35,021 nt of DNA from Candidatus Uhrbacteria bacterium CG10_big_fil_rev_8_21_14_0_10_48_11 (lineage in GTDB: Bacteria > Patescibacteriota > Patescibacteriia > GWA2-46-9): assembly GCA_002793855.1 (NCBI GenBank), contig PFET01000014.1, positions 1-35,021 of the forward strand, written 5' to 3'. Below, piece by piece: positions 2,511 to 28,494 of this stretch (the first letter of the stretch is position 1; the number at the start of each line of letters is the position of its first letter). The notes beneath the pieces were generated by a model. The model had not been told where the DNA came from and did no database searches. It saw nothing but the letters and a program-made list of their open reading frames with translations. Both the position numbers and the translations under genes were made by a program.

Positions 2511-4343
2511 CTAAAAATCTAACGTGGTTAATGCAGCGCTATCATTTTGAAATTGTGTAACCAACTCCCTAAGACGGGTTTCATCTCTGGGGGTAGCAGA
2601 CTCGGCGATCCGGATTTCTTGTTCCAATCGCTGCAGTCGTTCTTGAAGTTTCCGTTTGCGCAAACGGCGAACAGTCTCGTTGAGTTCGCGTTGAATATCA
2701 GCTTCTGGGAGAAGCGAAAAATCGCTCTCGGCGCGAAGCGAGAGAACATCGAGCGTTTGTAAAAGCACGCCGGCATTGGGTTCATTGGCGAGCGTCTGAC
2801 GGAACGCGTCACCCTGCCATGCAGGCGGCTGTTCTGCGCTCTCTCTAGTATAGAAAACGACCATCAGCTTGTACAGGGCACTGAGCTCTGGCGCCAAAAA
2901 CTCAGGCTCAATTTCGTCAAAAACAAACTTGGCCTCTTTTGGCGCGGCAAAGACTAATGCAATGAGTCGTTCTGACAAGTTGCGCAATACGTCAATCGGA
3001 CGTGAGGAAGAAACGTTGCTAGCAGCTGCCGGTCTCTGTGTTACCGATTTGGATGCTGGTAAAAGCTGACGCAAATCCCCTTCCGGCACGCCAACCAGTG
3101 CAGAGAGTCGCTTAAGGTAATGATTTTTAGCAATTACATCTGGAACGCGGGCAACGACGGGCAATAAACTACGAGCCACTTCGCGTTTGTCCTCTAGCTT
3201 AGTGAGGTCGCGATCTTCTGACGCGCGTCGAAAAAGCGTATCAAGCAGCGGTTCGGCTTTTGCTATCGCCGAGCGCCACAATTCTGGATTTTCTCTAATA
3301 CACTCGTCGGGATCTTTGAACGTTTTACCTTTCGCTCCTGTTGGTAGCCCAATGAGAAGCACCTCCAGTCCATTCTCAAGCGCAGCGATGAGCCCGCGCA
3401 TAGTCGCCGCTTCGCCAGCACTGTCGGTGTCAAAAGCAAAGGCGACTTTAGGCGTATAGCGTTTAATGAGCCGCACCTGTTCACCAGTAAGCGCCGTACC
3501 GGAAGCTGCCACCACATTCTTGATACCAGCTTGGTGAGAGGTAATGACATCTACATTTCCTTCAACCACAATAACGACACCATCGGTACGCACCACGGTT
3601 TTCGCCCTGTCCAACCCATAGAGTACCTCTCCTTTTTTATAGAGCAACGTCTCAGGAGTGTTAACGTACTTCGCCTCGGCTTCCGTACCGGGCATGGCGC
3701 GACCGGTCGCACCAACTACCTGTCCATGCGCATTGGTGAGCGGAAACATAATGCGATTTCGAAACCGGTCGTAAACGCTGCGTCCTCGGGTCGCCATCTT
3801 GTGCGCAGCTACACCGGCGCGAATCATATCTTCGTCCGCCACCCCCTGCTTAGCAAGAAAGGTAACAAGGGCATCCCATGAGTTCGGCGCAAACCCAAGA
3901 CGCCAATCACGAATGGTGGCTGGTAAAATCTGCCGCGTGTTCTGCAGGTACTCTCTTGCCTCGCGCGCCTCATCGCTGTTCCATAATGTCTCCTGCCAAA
4001 ATTGTATAGCCATTGCCAACACCCGCCCGACGCGCTCACGCTCGGTTCGCTTTTCTGGCGCTTCCGTGGTTACCCGCACCCCTGCCTTTGTACCCAACAG
4101 GCGCAAAGCGTCTGGAAACTCTAACCCTTCCTGCTTCATTACAAAAGAAAAAATATCGCCACCTTCACCGCAACCAAAACAGTGCCACATTTGTTTTGGC
4201 TTACTGACCATAAATGATGCCGATTTCTCCTGATGAAAAGGACAGCGTGCCTTGTAGTTTGCGCCAGAAGGTTTAAGTTCGATGTACTCGCCAAGTACAT
4301 CAACAATATCTAGCCGCGATTTTATTTCTTCTGCCGGTGTCAT
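2511..4343 (-). CDS. dnaG: DNA primase
   Basis: N-terminal zinc finger ([36 protein letters not shown]) and Toprim motifs ([22 protein letters not shown]). Confidence 0.97.
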
Positions 4344-4813
4344 AGTTTACGGTGCATTTGTTCAAAAAGTGCTAGCGCTGCTTTGACCGCATGGTATCCG
4401 CGGTTACCGTTGTCGTCCGCCGCGCGCGCAACTGCTTGTTCAAACGTGTTGGCAGTAATAATGCCAAGACCGATCGGGACTCCGCTCGTTGTTGCAGAAG
4501 TGAGAATGCTTTCCGTTACCGCTCGCGCTAAATGTTCGTCGTGCGAAGTCTCTCCTTTGACAATAGCACCAAGTGCAATAATAGCGTCGTAGCGTACCGC
4601 TTTTGCTAAATGAGCCGCCAGCTCGGCAACCTCAAACGAACCAGCAACAGGATAGGTATCAATATGCGCCTCCGCCACACCAGCCTCGCTAAGCGCGCGC
4701 GTGGCACCACGCTGGAGACCTTCGGTCACCTCAGGGTTAAACTGACCGGCAATAATCGCCACCCGAAAATCACTTCTATTGACGGTCGTAATATTATCGA
4801 CTGATTTGTGCAT
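4340..4813 (-). CDS. ribH: 6,7-dimethyl-8-ribityllumazine synthase
   Basis: FNPEVTEGLQRGATRALSEAGV, VAGSFEVAELA, GAIVKGETSHDEHLARAV, GIITANTFEQA are lumazine synthase signatures. Confidence 0.95.
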   Translation of the reverse strand: MHKSVDNITTVNRSDFRVAIIAGQFNPEVTEGLQRGATRALSEAGVAEAHIDTYPVAGSFEVAELAAHLAKAVRYDAIIALGAIVKGETSHDEHLARAVTESILTSATTSGVPIGLGIITANTFEQAVARAADDNGNRGYHAVKAALALFEQMHRKL

Positions 4814-5375
4814 TAACGTAGCGCGCTAGCATATCAAATTCGACATTAGCATACCTCCCCTTTTTAAGTAACCCAAGCGTTGTATGCGTAGTAGTATACG
4901 GGATAAGAAAAACCGAACACGATACCGAGCTGACGGCAGCAACCGTCAGGCTTACCCCGTCAATGGCAATAGATCCTTTTTCGGCAACCAGCCCTTTTGC
5001 TTTTGCTGGCAAGCGAAATACGAGACGCCTTCCACGCGCGTTACTGACGGTCTCCTCTACTCGACAGGCAGCATCAACATGGCCAAACACAAAATGTCCA
5101 TCAACCGCATCTTTGAGACGAAGAGACGGTTCAATGTTGAGCGCCTCACCGATGTTGATTTTAGAAAGCGTGGTACGCCGCATGGTTTCTGGCATAACGC
5201 TAAAGGTATACTCATGTCGCTGCTGTTTTTCGACGGTAAGACAAACACCATTGACCGCAATGCTGTCACCAACTTTTGCCAAAAGCTTCGGTATGGCAAC
5301 GACAAACTGGTCAGCTATTGTTTTGTGCTGATGCCGCTTTAGTATGCCGCGATGGCGAATGATACCACTAAACAT
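4794..5375 (-). CDS. ribE: Riboflavin synthase alpha subunit
   Basis: MFSGIIRHRGIL N-terminus and two lumazine-binding repeats (GDSIAVNGVCLTV; KGSIAIDGVSLTV). Confidence 0.95.
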   Translation of the reverse strand: MFSGIIRHRGILKRHQHKTIADQFVVAIPKLLAKVGDSIAVNGVCLTVEKQQRHEYTFSVMPETMRRTTLSKINIGEALNIEPSLRLKDAVDGHFVFGHVDAACRVEETVSNARGRRLVFRLPAKAKGLVAEKGSIAIDGVSLTVAAVSSVSCSVFLIPYTTTHTTLGLLKKGRYANVEFDMLARYVNAQISR

Positions 5376-5757
5376 AAGGGCCGAGATGAGTAAGCGTTGT
5401 TGTTTTAGCGCGCTCTACATCACGCGCAATTTGCAGGGTAAGCATATCGTCACTGCGATACCGACTAAGCACGCGAAGCTTTTTTACCAGTGTTACTTCA
5501 AGCATTGTGCCGTAGAGGTTACCACGATAACCAATGAGATGAACCTCAACCTTATCGTGAACGCCAATGACCACAGCAGCAGAATAACGTCGGGTATTAA
5601 CGGTGGCGATACCGGCGTAGACGCCATCGTTGACTGGATGACGGTTAAAGTAATGACGGGCAAGGTTTGCCGTCGGGTAACCGAGCTTTCGCCCGACCTT
5701 GTCACCGTGAATAACGCGGCCACGAAGTTTACCAAGCGACTTTTGCTCGTAACTCAT
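5368..5757 (-). CDS. Monofunctional riboflavin kinase (RibF C-terminal-type domain alone)
   Basis: LRGRVIHGDKVGRKLGYPTANL, GVYAGIATVN and EVHLIGYRGNLYGTMLEVTLVKKLR match the flavokinase domain; no adenylyltransferase domain present. Confidence 0.88.
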   Translation of the reverse strand: MSYEQKSLGKLRGRVIHGDKVGRKLGYPTANLARHYFNRHPVNDGVYAGIATVNTRRYSAAVVIGVHDKVEVHLIGYRGNLYGTMLEVTLVKKLRVLSRYRSDDMLTLQIARDVERAKTTTLTHLGPYV

Positions 5758-9550: not shown

Positions 9551-10062
9551 AGACGTAGTGTAGCACAACTGTACCTTGCGCGTTTATTTTTTCTACAGAA
9601 ACCAAAGATGCGGTACGCTCCCCTTGCGATGCGTTGTGAAGTGGCAATCCCTCACCAAAACTTATTGGCTCAATCGTTAAAAACAGTTCGTCAATTAAAC
9701 CATTGTTAAAAAAAATACGTGTACGTTTCTGTACCACCTAGCACAGCGACTCGGCTGTAATTTTTTTCTTTACAAAACTGCTCTACCCCAACAACTGCCG
9801 GATTAAGATAAGTTACTAGATCGTTTTCTTCTTTGCATACTATGGTGCTTCTAGTAAAAATAATGCAGCGCCGTTTTGAAAGCGCCTCACGTGCGGTTGT
9901 GTAGGTTGTCCGCCCAACAACAATCGCATCCGCACTGTCGAGTTCACGATGAAGCTGTGCTTTGTCTTCTGCGCTAGTCCAATTGGTGAACTCCCCTGCC
10001 TTTCTGGCAATCCGCCCATCAAGTGTCATTGCGGCGAGTGCGATAAACTTTGACCTACTCAT
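9534..10062 (-). pseudogene. RibD C-terminal/dihydrofolate-reductase-like protein, interrupted by one frameshift
   Basis: ORF 9706-10137 (MSRSKFIALAAMTLDGRIARKAGEFTNWTSAED...ADAIVVGRTTYTTAREAL...VAVLGGTETYTYFF) continues in another frame as FFNNGLIDELFLTIEPISFGEGLPL (ORF 9534-9737); breakpoint in an A8/T8 run at 9708-9715. Confidence 0.8.
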
Positions 10063-10786
10063 TGCTTTCACTGAAACAATCAAGAAGCGGACGGTAAATA
10101 TCGTCTTCCGGAGGTACCAGCAAGGCCGCCTCTTCATTTTGCTCGCTAAAAGTTACGTGCGGGACATCACGCAGTACCGCAAGTGGTGTTTGCTCGTTTC
10201 CTTCGCCCATATGAAGCACAGCAATAGCAGCAATAGCGTCTACCACATTTGTTCTCGACATATGAAACGGCCGGCCGAATATATCAGCGGTGCCAACGTA
10301 ACTTTTTACCGGATGAAGACCGGCAAACCCGATAGAAATACCTACCACCCCATAGCGAAGCGGAATGGTATGGCTGTCAGTCAACACAACACCAAGGTTG
10401 TTAAGGTTCCATTTTTCTTTAAGGCGCGCTCTGAGCTCTCTAGCAAAAGCGTAGGGCTGCTCTGGCCAAAGAATATAATATCCATGCCCGTTGCTCTCGT
10501 CGATACCGGCAGAGGCAATGAGGGTGTGCTCTTTAATAGCTAAAACAGCAAGCGCGTGCGGGACACGGCTACGAGGAATGTAGCGCTCCGCCTCTTTAGT
10601 AATGAGCTCGTCCTTATTGACGCTATCGGTAATTTTGATGCAGCGACCTTGATGAATGGCAACAATCTTTGAGCTGACGCAAAGAATATCCCCATCTTTT
10701 AACTCGGAGACACTCTCATCGATTAAGCGATAAACATCATCTCGGGGCGGCTCAAAGGCCCGAGTACGAATGGTTCGAATTTCCAT
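10055..10786 (-). CDS. Coenzyme F420-0:L-glutamate ligase-like protein (CofE family)
   Basis: LKDGDILCVSSKIVAIHQGRCI, PHALAVLAIKEHTLIASAGIDESNGHGYYILWP, LGVVLTDSHTIPLRYGVVGISIGFAGLHP match the CofE/FbiB-N family. Confidence 0.85.
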   Translation of the reverse strand: MEIRTIRTRAFEPPRDDVYRLIDESVSELKDGDILCVSSKIVAIHQGRCIKITDSVNKDELITKEAERYIPRSRVPHALAVLAIKEHTLIASAGIDESNGHGYYILWPEQPYAFARELRARLKEKWNLNNLGVVLTDSHTIPLRYGVVGISIGFAGLHPVKSYVGTADIFGRPFHMSRTNVVDAIAAIAVLHMGEGNEQTPLAVLRDVPHVTFSEQNEEAALLVPPEDDIYRPLLDCFSESNE

Positions 10787-20230: not shown

Positions 20231-21256
20231 CTAGTTGTTCGTTTGTGCTCTAGGTTGTTGCTGAGTAGAGCAGTGAATAGTGCCAAACCCCCACACGAGA
20301 TCAGTACAATCGATACCAACAACTTTTCGTTCAGGAAATACTGTTTCAAAAAGCTTTAGCGCAACACCATCTTCCGGACAACGAAACGTAGGTACCAACA
20401 CCGTTTTGTTCGCAATATAAAAATTGGCATAACTTGCTGGCAATCGATTATTTTCATACACAACCGGTTGTGGTACTGGTAACGGAATAACGGTAATGTT
20501 CTTACCGTCTTGGTCCTTCATCTGAGAAAGATCGGTAAAATTTTTCTGCAGCACCGCATAGTCCACATCGTCCGTCCTCTGAGTAACTGGACATACGACG
20601 GTTGTTGAGTTTACGAAACGAACCAAGTCGTCGATATGCCCGTCTGTATCATCCCCCTCTATACCTTCCTTAAGCCAGAGAATATTTTGCACACCTAGGT
20701 ACTGCGACAGTTTTTCTTCAATCTGGCTGCGCGTCATTGATGGGTTTCTATTTTTGTTAAGCAGACACTGTTCAGTAGTAATAAGTGTACCTTGCCCGTT
20801 GACCTCAATTGATCCCCCTTCAAGTACCATACCAGATTCAATAAGCGGCACCCTTACAACGGCAGCAATTTGCGGGGGTACCGCATCATCCTTGTCGTAC
20901 GGACCCCACTTCATTCCATTGGCATTGTACATCCAGTCAAGGGCAACCAAACCGTTTTCGCTCTCGACAAATATTGGACCATGATCGCGCGACCACGAGG
21001 CATTCGTCACAATGTGATGAAATGATATTTGCTCAAGTGATACCTTGCCTACTGTTAATATTGCCCGCGCTGCGGCTTCTGCCTTGTTGTCGTTAACGCA
21101 AATACGCACCGGCTCACTTACTGAAAGTGCCCGTACTATTTCTACGTAAACAGCGGGAATCGGTTCAAACTTTCCCGGCCAATGATTTTCGTTGTGCGGC
21201 CAAGCAATCCAGGTGGCGTCATGCGGCTCCCACTCTGCCGGCATTCGGTAATTCAT
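20231..21256 (-). CDS. aguA: Agmatine deiminase
   Basis: RMPAEWEPHDATWIAWPHNENHWPG, SWSRDHGPIFV, GDDTDGHIDDLVRFV, GFGTIHCSTQQQPRA with catalytic Cys. Confidence 0.95.
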   Translation of the reverse strand: MNYRMPAEWEPHDATWIAWPHNENHWPGKFEPIPAVYVEIVRALSVSEPVRICVNDNKAEAAARAILTVGKVSLEQISFHHIVTNASWSRDHGPIFVESENGLVALDWMYNANGMKWGPYDKDDAVPPQIAAVVRVPLIESGMVLEGGSIEVNGQGTLITTEQCLLNKNRNPSMTRSQIEEKLSQYLGVQNILWLKEGIEGDDTDGHIDDLVRFVNSTTVVCPVTQRTDDVDYAVLQKNFTDLSQMKDQDGKNITVIPLPVPQPVVYENNRLPASYANFYIANKTVLVPTFRCPEDGVALKLFETVFPERKVVGIDCTDLVWGFGTIHCSTQQQPRAQTNN

Positions 21257-22134
21257 TGCTTTCTGACACTAAAACGGCGTGCTTTCAAAAACGGCCAATC
21301 GCGACGCATTTGGGCAATAAGCGAGAGGTCGCAATTAACAAGCAGGTCTTCCTCTTTTGTTGATGATGCTTTTGCAATAACAGCCCCATAAGGATCTGAA
21401 ACAAATGAAGTACCCCAAAATTGTAGATGGTCATCTTTACCAACTCGATTAACAGCCACCACAAAGACGTTGTTGGCGATGGCGTGTGCACGTTGAATAG
21501 TCTGCCATGCCCCATGCTCAGCTTTGTTTACGCCTCTTGGGTCCTCACGCTGCCAACCAATAGCCGTAGGGTAGAAAATAATTTGTGCGCCCCCGGCCGC
21601 CGCTGATCTCGCCCCCTCGGGAAACCACTGATCCCAACAGATCATAGGGCTTACCTCGATACCACCCACGCGAACAGTGACCGTTCCTTGCGTACCTGAT
21701 GAAAAATAATAAGCTTCGTCATAGTAATTATGCGGGTCATCGGGAATATGCATTTTTCGATACCGCGCGTTAATTTTACCGCTTGGTGAAAGTACTAATG
21801 CAGTATTGTAAAATTTATTATTCCTCGCGCGTTCAAATAACGACGTTATAATAGTTACCTTGTTACGACGCGCAATGTCAGCAAGGACGTGACTGGTCGG
21901 CCCAGGTATTGGCTCAGCTAAGGCAAAAAAATGCTTATCTCGTCGCTGGCAAAAGTAAGGCGTTAAAAACAACTCTGGCAGACAAATTATTTTTGCGCCC
22001 CTCTTGGCAAGAGCAACAATGCGATGCGCGGCAATCGTCAAATTTTCTGCCGGATTTTCACGGCTTCGCATTTGCACGAGTCCGATTAAAACGGTACGTG
22101 CCTTTACTTTTTTTGAACGCTCCCGAGCAGCCAT
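21253..22134 (-). CDS. aguB: N-carbamoylputrescine amidase (nitrilase superfamily)
   Basis: IICLPELFLTPYFCQ, YRKMHIPDDPHNYYDEAYYFSSG, SPMICWDQWFPEGARSAA: E-K-C triad in N-carbamoylputrescine amidase context. Confidence 0.93.
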   Translation of the reverse strand: MAARERSKKVKARTVLIGLVQMRSRENPAENLTIAAHRIVALAKRGAKIICLPELFLTPYFCQRRDKHFFALAEPIPGPTSHVLADIARRNKVTIITSLFERARNNKFYNTALVLSPSGKINARYRKMHIPDDPHNYYDEAYYFSSGTQGTVTVRVGGIEVSPMICWDQWFPEGARSAAAGGAQIIFYPTAIGWQREDPRGVNKAEHGAWQTIQRAHAIANNVFVVAVNRVGKDDHLQFWGTSFVSDPYGAVIAKASSTKEEDLLVNCDLSLIAQMRRDWPFLKARRFSVRKQ

Positions 22135-22146
22135 TGAGTGCTCTGG

Positions 22147-23175
22147 CTAAGCCGAAAAGAGTGAGGCAAATTTGCGAGGCTCTCGCTCTTTCCAATTTCC
22201 TTTCTGGTACGCGTAAGCAGCAATAAGCGGCACAGCGAGCGTCGCCTCGGCGTAGACCATCTGCTCGTAAACCGTACTCACCTTTCCCCATGAACTAGCT
22301 TCTTTAAGCGTTGAAGAAGAACAGGCGCCATCACGAACGTCCGCTACGGTAATTTGTATTGCGTACTTGTGCACTGGTACTTCGTGACCCAATACCTCTG
22401 CGCACACCACCGTGTCTTGAGCAAAATTTTTCGGTACGCCACCACCAACCATGAAAAGTCCGCTCTCGCCACTCTTAATTTTAATCTCGGTTAGCTCACG
22501 AAAATCTTTAACCGAATCAATGGACATATGCTCGTCCGGATGTTTCACCTGATGAAGCACCAGACCAAAACCGGCTGACGAGTCAGAAAAGGCGGGACAA
22601 AAAATTGGTACGCCATGCTCGTAGGCCAGTTGTACCAGCGAATCTTTTTTCTTACTGTGCGTTGTTAAATACTTTCCCATTGCCGCAATGAATTCTCGCG
22701 AAGAATGTGGTCGGGGTGGCAAACTCTCTGCAATTTCACCAATGGTTTTGTCGCAAGTTTGCAATTCTTCTTCGTCAATAAACGTGTCGTAGATGCGATC
22801 AATGTAGAGCTTTCGCAGTTCACCGTCGTCCACGAACGGTGAACCCTGATAATGCTTGAAACCCAACGCCTCAAAAAAATCCATATCAACAATTGAGGCG
22901 CCGGTAGCCACAATGGCATCGATCATATTATGCTTGATAAGATCGGCGTAAACCTGCATGCAGCCTGCAGCACTTGTCGAACCGGCAAGCGTTAGCCACA
23001 CTGAGCTGCCTTTGTCCCCCAACATTTGGCTATAGATATTGGCAGCACGCGCAAGGTCTCGAGCCGAAAATGACATTTTTCCATAGGCATCAATGAGCTT
23101 TTCGGCATCAATTTTCGTGATGTCAATGTGTTCGACGGGTGTTTTGAGTAACTCTTTTTTCGTTAGTTGTGACAT
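22147..23175 (-). CDS. Deoxyhypusine synthase-like protein (possible homospermidine-type synthase)
   Basis: VWLTLAGSTSAAGCMQVYADLIKHNMIDAIVATGASIVDMDFFEALG, GVPIFCPAFSDSS, VGGGVPKNF, EASSWGKVS with the catalytic-Lys SWGK motif. Confidence 0.9.
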   Translation of the reverse strand: MSQLTKKELLKTPVEHIDITKIDAEKLIDAYGKMSFSARDLARAANIYSQMLGDKGSSVWLTLAGSTSAAGCMQVYADLIKHNMIDAIVATGASIVDMDFFEALGFKHYQGSPFVDDGELRKLYIDRIYDTFIDEEELQTCDKTIGEIAESLPPRPHSSREFIAAMGKYLTTHSKKKDSLVQLAYEHGVPIFCPAFSDSSAGFGLVLHQVKHPDEHMSIDSVKDFRELTEIKIKSGESGLFMVGGGVPKNFAQDTVVCAEVLGHEVPVHKYAIQITVADVRDGACSSSTLKEASSWGKVSTVYEQMVYAEATLAVPLIAAYAYQKGNWKEREPRKFASLFSA

Positions 23176-26689: not shown

Positions 26690-27988
26690 CTAGCGAACAA
26701 CGGCCATAACCTCAGCAATGCTGTTACCAACAACTACACTTTTCTTTTTCTTTTTTGCCACAAGCGCCAACGCACGAGGTAGCTTCATTCTTTTATGCGT
26801 TGCTGCTTCGACGGTAGCCTTAAACTTCGCTGGGTGTGCTGTTGAGAGCACCACTAACGGCCCCTTTTCAGGATGGGTTCGCCGGTACGTTTTGGCAGCC
26901 GCGATGCCAACTGCCGTATGGGGGTCAACAAGATAACCGTACCGTTTGTAAATAGCAGTGATGCTCGCGATTGTCTCCGCATCGCTTACGGCAATTCCTG
27001 CTATATCTTTTGCCATGGCGCTTCTCTTGTGTTGATAGAGCGCAAGCATACGAGAAAAATTACTTGGGTTACCAACATCCATCGCGTTTGATAGTGTCGC
27101 TTTCGATACGCGCGGTTTAAACCGTCCGGTTTTAAGATAACTCGGCACGACGTTGTTCGCATTGGTTGCGGCAACAAAGCCAGCAATGGGTACACCCATG
27201 CGTTTTGCTAACAAACCACCGGTCAGATTGCCAAAGTTGCCGCTCGGCACGACAAAACGCGGTTGCTCCTCAACACCTTGGCGCTTAAGTTCTGCCGTCG
27301 CATAAGCATAGTAGACCGATTGCGGTAGCAACCGACCAAGGTTGATAGAGTTAGCAGACGAAAGGTAGGCACCGCTCTTGCTTTGCCTCATGGCAAGCGC
27401 CGTCTTGGCGAGTTTTTGACAGTCATCAAATTTTCCCAGCACCTCAAGCGCGGTGATGTTATGCCCATAGGTCGTCAGCTGCTGTTCTTGCAGTTTACTC
27501 ACGCGCTTCTGCGGGTAAAGCATGTACACATGTATATTCGGAATGTCCAAAAAACCACTCGCTACCGCGCTACCGGTGTCACCAGAGGTTGCCACAATAA
27601 TGTTAACCTGTGTTTTTTCTTTTTCGATAAATGACTGTAAGAGTCGCGCAAAAAAACGGGCGCCAAAATCTTTAAAAGAAAGCGTTGGCCCATGAAACAG
27701 CTCGACAACATAAAGATCGTCTTCAAGTTGTTTCATCGGTACGTCAAAAGTAAATGCCTCTTTGACAATACGTCGTAAGCGTTGCTTCGATACTTCCGCC
27801 ATAAATGGCTGCAGCATTCCCTCGGCAACCTGCCAATACTTTTTGCTCGGTAGCGCTGTTAAAAATTGCTTCGATAACTTTGGTATTCGGTTCGGTAGAT
27901 AGAGTCCGCCATCTGGCGCTAACCCTTCAACAATAGCTTGCTCCAAACGTATCGAAGAAACGCCACCTCGAGTACTGTGAAATTTCAT
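26690..27988 (-). CDS. thrC: Threonine synthase
   Basis: MKFHSTRGG, LAPDGGLYLP, FHGPTLSFKDFGARF (PLP Lys), ATSGDTGSAV, SGNFGNLTGG. Confidence 0.95.
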   Translation of the reverse strand: MKFHSTRGGVSSIRLEQAIVEGLAPDGGLYLPNRIPKLSKQFLTALPSKKYWQVAEGMLQPFMAEVSKQRLRRIVKEAFTFDVPMKQLEDDLYVVELFHGPTLSFKDFGARFFARLLQSFIEKEKTQVNIIVATSGDTGSAVASGFLDIPNIHVYMLYPQKRVSKLQEQQLTTYGHNITALEVLGKFDDCQKLAKTALAMRQSKSGAYLSSANSINLGRLLPQSVYYAYATAELKRQGVEEQPRFVVPSGNFGNLTGGLLAKRMGVPIAGFVAATNANNVVPSYLKTGRFKPRVSKATLSNAMDVGNPSNFSRMLALYQHKRSAMAKDIAGIAVSDAETIASITAIYKRYGYLVDPHTAVGIAAAKTYRRTHPEKGPLVVLSTAHPAKFKATVEAATHKRMKLPRALALVAKKKKKSVVVGNSIAEVMAVVR

Positions 27989-28494
27989 GCCAACTTCAAG
28001 TCGGCAACAATCCGAGCTGCCAAGTCATCGGCATCTTTCCATGGCCAGACACAAGTGTAGTCAGCGTACTTTTCATACAACGGCTGACGCTGTAAGAGGA
28101 CGCCAGCCAAACCCCGCTCGTCCATCCCAACAATGCCGCGCATAGCAACATTGTCTCGTGCCGCACGCTCTTCAAGAATAGAAAGCGGCGTCGCAATGTA
28201 AATAACGGTTGTCTCTTTTTTTAAACGCTCCATTGCCTTTTCGGCAAAAACCATACTACCCCCGGGAGCCATTACCCTATTTTCAAAACTCGGAAACGCT
28301 AAAACATACCCTTTTTCAATGTTCACTAATCCGCCTCCTTTGTTGCCATTATTAATTTCGCCGACCGATGCTTTCTCTCGCTCTTTAATATAAAGGTCAA
28401 GATCAATGAACTGCCAATTAACAAGGTGAGCAACCCGTTTACCAACGGCAGATTTACCCGAATACGGCATCCCGACAAAACTTATGCCCTGCAT
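27985..28494 (-). CDS. Shikimate-kinase-like P-loop kinase
   Basis: ISFVGMPYSGKSAVGKRVA Walker A, WQFIDLDLYIKE, VMAPGGSMV, LLQRQPLYEKYAD; shikimate kinase fold but divergent at the acceptor-binding motif. Confidence 0.85.
   Translation of the reverse strand: MQGISFVGMPYSGKSAVGKRVAHLVNWQFIDLDLYIKEREKASVGEINNGNKGGGLVNIEKGYVLAFPSFENRVMAPGGSMVFAEKAMERLKKETTVIYIATPLSILEERAARDNVAMRGIVGMDERGLAGVLLQRQPLYEKYADYTCVWPWKDADDLAARIVADLKLA

Follow-up and report, generated by a model that had tools for sequence, protein, structure and literature searches.

The gene at positions 27985-28494 of the window (the whole stretch of DNA analyzed, 35,021 nucleotides from a Candidatus Uhrbacteria genome) very probably encodes a homoserine kinase built on a shikimate-kinase fold, whose substrate we infer to be L-homoserine, and which is coupled to a threonine synthase, ThrC, that makes L-threonine. 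The assignment is based on gene order, homology, residue changes, the absence of the pathway alternatives that were tested, and recurrence of the gene pair in other genomes. The kinase is a divergent member, in a different phylum and in a thrC operon, of a class known from Desulfovibrio. The sequence-only reading of this DNA had proposed that the kinase may phosphorylate homoserine or another small alcohol; phosphorylation of homoserine is supported, as a predicted activity, by conservation of the pair, by the proven homologue DvMF_0971, and by the loss of shikimate-binding residues, but that reading overlooked the known DvMF_0971/NF040667 class and the fact that homoserine dehydrogenase is undetected in the genome.

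Gene pair and residues of the kinase

The kinase gene and thrC are listed in Table 1. At their junction the minus strand reads GTTGGCATGAAATTT, in which the TGA of the kinase and the ATG of thrC share the letters ATGA; both open reading frames were recovered, and the 4-nt overlap described from the sequence holds. An overlap of this kind suggests that the two genes may be translationally coupled.

Table 1. Coordinates of the kinase-thrC locus in the window
Feature	Positions	Strand	Assignment or basis
Kinase gene, 169 aa	27985-28494	minus	Shikimate-kinase fold; predicted ATP:homoserine O-phosphotransferase
thrC, threonine synthase (E. coli-type, long form), 432 aa	26690-27988	minus	TIGR00260 and PDB 1vb3
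ATGA stop-start overlap, kinase/thrC	27985-27988	minus	Read from sequence

The partner gene is a threonine synthase by the TIGR00260 model (284.7 bits against a cut-off of 167.1), has the Pfam domains PALP, Thr_synth_N, and THR4_C, and matches the E. coli enzyme with an E value of 7e-88. The E. coli ThrC motifs HGPTLSFKDFG, SGDTG, SANSIN, VPSGNFG, and AHPAKF are preserved in it, including the PLP-lysine motif SFKDFG.

The sole Pfam match of the kinase is to SKI (PF01202), at 77.4 bits versus a cut-off of 22.1; the GHMP kinase N domain was not found in it. The shikimate carboxylate is held by Arg58 and Arg136, and further ligands are Asp34, Gly79-81, and Arg117 (PMC3646032; PMC2593004). In common with AroK and AroL, the window kinase has the fold, a Walker A motif (GMPYSGKS), both aspartates (MtSK Asp32 and Asp34), and the equivalents of Glu61 and Arg136, and the DLD and GG motifs reported earlier are all present on re-reading. 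Unlike those enzymes, it has Val, in the aligned register, at the position of MtSK Arg58, GGS in place of GGG (the third Gly being replaced by Ser), and RGI(VG) in place of the lid sequence RPL(L), so that RP becomes RG; the proposed loss of the shikimate-binding Arg from GExxFRxxE and the alteration of RPLL, noted as MRGIVG, are thus both confirmed by alignment. Loss of the shikimate Arg and of the RPLL lid together with a changed role is also seen in the plant proteins SKL1 and SKL2 (PMC2593004), but these are chloroplast proteins with extra domains and no link to threonine.

An AlphaFold2 model of the kinase, generated from a 40-sequence alignment, has a mean pLDDT of 92.1 and a pTM of 0.88. 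Its top matches in the PDB are shikimate kinases, such as that of Acinetobacter baumannii (4y0a, E 9.2e-13, TM 0.89); it should be noted that the predicted fold does not discriminate between substrates. The long branch of the protein (see below) and its divergent substrate region are features that might be expected of a catalytically inactive remnant, decaying or regulatory, but this is highly improbable for a protein that retains Walker A, both Asp residues, and the Arg136 and Glu61 equivalents, is modeled with such confidence, and is encoded by a full-length open frame coupled to an intact gene.

Pathway content of the genome and recurrence of the pair

The source genome (891 kb in 16 contigs, 97.39% complete, 0% contaminated) was examined with single-family profile searches. 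The thrC-coupled kinase is its one SKI match, and chorismate synthase, a GHMP kinase domain, a ThrB2-type kinase (TIGR00938), and homoserine dehydrogenase were all undetected, at the thresholds used, in the whole source genome; the searches for homoserine dehydrogenase, GHMP kinases, and chorismate synthase were positive in 14 of 14 control genomes. Judged on chorismate synthase, a shikimate pathway was not found. The earlier observation that the window contains no GHMP homoserine kinase therefore extends to the genome, and the combination that would have spoken against a homoserine kinase, a full shikimate pathway with a separate homoserine kinase, was sought genome-wide with these families and was not found. 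The GHMP homoserine kinase ThrB resembles the window kinase in its thrC-adjacent position and in the reaction predicted here, but has an unrelated fold. As homoserine dehydrogenase is undetected, homoserine would need to be imported from outside, and the genome would have to combine an unusual, truncated threonine pathway with scavenging of homoserine.

Elsewhere in the window, a cluster at 20231-23175 comprises genes for an agmatine-deiminase-like protein (PAD_porph), a carbon-nitrogen hydrolase, and a member of the deoxyhypusine synthase family, and suggests that this reduced genome has a route to polyamines. Three consecutive genes at 4340-5757 encode lumazine synthase, a riboflavin synthase-like protein, and riboflavin kinase, and a protein of the F420-0:gamma-glutamyl ligase family (Pfam F420_ligase) is encoded at 10055-10786 in this small bacterial genome.

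Conservation of the pair, which had been suggested as a check, was examined in 380 genomes of the phylum; the source order itself is represented by 3 genomes only. Relatives of the kinase adjoin thrC in two other, distant genomes, G306 (locus L016) and G336 (locus L017), so the pair recurs. The G306 proteins are 33-35% (kinase) and 37% (ThrC) identical to those of the window, and in both genomes the order and strand are those of the window and the genes touch or nearly do so. Because order, strand, and near-contact are repeated in two further families of this phylum, chance adjacency is unlikely. Where the G306 kinase should start, an ordinary start codon is missing, possibly through an assembly indel. 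Both genomes also have a true shikimate kinase: in G306 a separate aroK lies beside aroB, aroA, aroD, and aroC (aroB, aroA, and aroD being identified by eye from their starts), and G336 encodes an AroA-AroK fusion. G336 in addition has homoserine dehydrogenase, and its lone GHMP match is IspE; with homoserine dehydrogenase, its own shikimate kinase, and no ThrB, G336 is left with its thrC-linked kinase as the single candidate that was found for phosphorylating homoserine. Homoserine dehydrogenase was also undetected in G306 (91% complete) and in G021 (97%), both of which have a kinase adjoining thrC, that of G021 being of the kind described next as protein X. The kinase type and thrC co-occur above chance (3/7 versus 15/373 genomes, Fisher p 0.003; p 0.026 without the window's own genome), though the set had been assembled on likeness to the window kinase and to NF040667.

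Protein X is a P-loop protein of 222-224 residues encoded between thrA and thrC (L080:6027-6701 and L082:6377-7051) or just before thrC (L081:6564-7232). It reaches no Pfam cut-off, and hhalign joins it to the thrC-linked kinases at 97.6%. The GHMP proteins that were checked, IspE in G344 and mevalonate kinase in G021, are not ThrB. Protein X is possibly a second shikimate-kinase-like homoserine kinase, occupying the thrB slot of thrA-X-thrC operons. The threonine synthase model TIGR00260 also matched PLP enzymes of about 620 residues (L086:6645-8498, L087:5917-7770, L090:5758-7695, and L084:14099-15961) in surroundings of branched-chain amino-acid genes. These were rejected as threonine synthases of the thrC kind; in the L086 protein a LeuA_dimer domain was confirmed at the C terminus, and the enzyme looks like a threonine deaminase that carries a regulatory domain of the LeuA type.

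Relationship to the Desulfovibrio enzyme and the wider kinase group

One shikimate-kinase-like homoserine kinase has been described before. This protein, DvMF_0971 from Desulfovibrio vulgaris Miyazaki F, complements an E. coli strain mutated in thrB, and threonine in turn rescues mutants in its own gene (PMC5764234). The NCBIfam model NF040667 (hom_kin_desulfo), to judge from its name and function, appears to represent this protein. It is the top NCBIfam model for the window kinase, at 98.3 bits, compared with 62.5 for AroL, but this score is half of the 197-bit cut-off. The G306 relative scores 141-154 bits, also below the cut-off, and a Desulfovibrionaceae protein, L169, scores 234 bits, above it. 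The ratio of the NF040667 score to the shikimate kinase score was dropped as a lone proof, as genuine shikimate kinases reach 107-113 bits on this model, and 114 bits is reached by a kinase that adjoins murT and has no thrC close by.

Residues and context allow a closer comparison. The signature of L169, comprising GGS, RG, and a residue other than Arg at position 58, is found in the window kinase as GGS, RGI, and Val58, and the DvMF_0971 type shares with it the shikimate-kinase fold, GMPGxGK, GGS, the RG lid, and the same proposed reaction. The systems differ in that the window kinase is coupled to thrC, whereas no thrC lies in the roughly 4 kb upstream and 1 kb downstream of L169, and in that D. 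vulgaris has a homoserine dehydrogenase (PMC5764234) and the window genome has no detectable one. In the literature library searched, no relevant paper connected Patescibacteria or the Candidate Phyla Radiation with homoserine kinase.

A single-sequence scan of contigs found no relatives of the window kinase, and a scan with an alignment of the three thrC-linked kinases, using patterns built on the Walker A and DxD motifs with the diagnostic sites left out, retrieved 80 loci, whose sources include Clostridia, Desulfobacterota, methanogens, Gammaproteobacteria, and Paceibacterota. In two maximum-likelihood trees, a shikimate-kinase clade that takes in E. coli AroK and AroL, the G306 AroK, and the G336 AroA-AroK fusion is split off with support of 100/100 (27 rows) and 100/99 (21 rows), and all three thrC-linked kinases, that of the window included, lie outside it together with L169. 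The Asp34, Glu61, and Arg136 equivalents are present throughout both groups. Within the shikimate clade, Arg58 and GGG are invariant (27/27 each); outside it, GGS, TGS, or SGS is found in 87/87 sequences, and RG mostly replaces RP. Arg58 is absent from all three thrC-linked kinases and L169, but because some other members outside the clade retain it, this residue alone is not diagnostic.

The Pfam SKI match and the fold would, by themselves, be those of an ordinary shikimate kinase with thrC as an accidental neighbor; the window kinase is a long branch, and the AU test does not reject its placement in the shikimate clade (p 0.152). Such an enzyme would be extremely hard to reconcile with the support of 100/99-100 that separates the kinase from that clade, with the loss of Arg58, the third Gly, and RP, with a genome in which chorismate synthase is undetected, and with the coexistence of two thrC-linked relatives with true shikimate kinases.

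A more serious alternative, though still an unlikely one, is that the kinase acts on some other small hydroxylated metabolite, such as another amino-acid alcohol, that the partner PLP enzyme uses the resulting phosphate or a different substrate, and that the ThrC label is right by fold alone. The closest relatives of the window kinase besides that of G306 are L111 and L118 (Paceibacterota), and thrC had no match in either genome; because of this, other substrates are possible in the group, and it may be a wider one in which not all members serve threonine synthesis. Kinases of the GGS type were also observed in other settings: in G206, beside murT/gatD-like genes, one lies between miaA-like and MurT-like ligase genes (L018:7635-8129), a GATase_3 gene being close by and thrC absent from the surroundings, and in Methanolobus one stands in a row with an ACT-domain protein and a DUF711 protein (L114:2309-4537). 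These contexts favor the alternative, as does the undetected homoserine dehydrogenase of the window genome. Against it are the intact E. coli ThrC motifs of the partner, the recurrence of the pair, once with homoserine dehydrogenase and no ThrB in the genome, and the homology to a proven homoserine kinase (PMC5764234). Homoserine is preferred as the substrate.

Proposed reaction and significance

As a homoserine kinase, the enzyme would phosphorylate L-homoserine on its side-chain hydroxyl with the γ-phosphate of ATP, and the coupled threonine synthase would turn the resulting O-phosphohomoserine into L-threonine. In the predicted mechanism, the P-loop and the two aspartates (MtSK Asp32/Asp34) bind Mg-ATP and activate the hydroxyl, and the homoserine carboxylate is probably held by the Arg136 equivalent. 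The changes of Arg58 to Val, GGG to GGS, and Arg-Pro to Arg-Gly in the lid would remove the shikimate site and suit an amino-acid alcohol of smaller size. Since homoserine dehydrogenase was not found, the kinase and ThrC are proposed to constitute, probably, a two-step salvage route for homoserine from neighboring cells. More generally, it may tentatively be suggested, as something rather short of an even chance, that some genomes of the phylum carry such a two-gene homoserine-salvage module with no homoserine dehydrogenase, and that thr operons have recruited shikimate-kinase-like P-loop kinases, possibly more than once.

Homoserine kinase is among the commonest apparent gaps in the prediction of amino-acid pathways (PMC7311316). 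General models such as Pfam SKI name kinases of this type shikimate kinase, so that a shikimate step is wrongly called and threonine synthesis wrongly appears to have a gap; the two kinds can be separated by a signature of GGS, RG, and usually no Arg58, and the genomes that have a thrC-linked pair as well as a true shikimate kinase provide a clean natural control. If the salvage module is real, threonine would be made from homoserine taken from other cells, and, should homoserine dehydrogenase prove truly absent, homoserine would be a candidate for a metabolite exchanged with these reduced bacteria.
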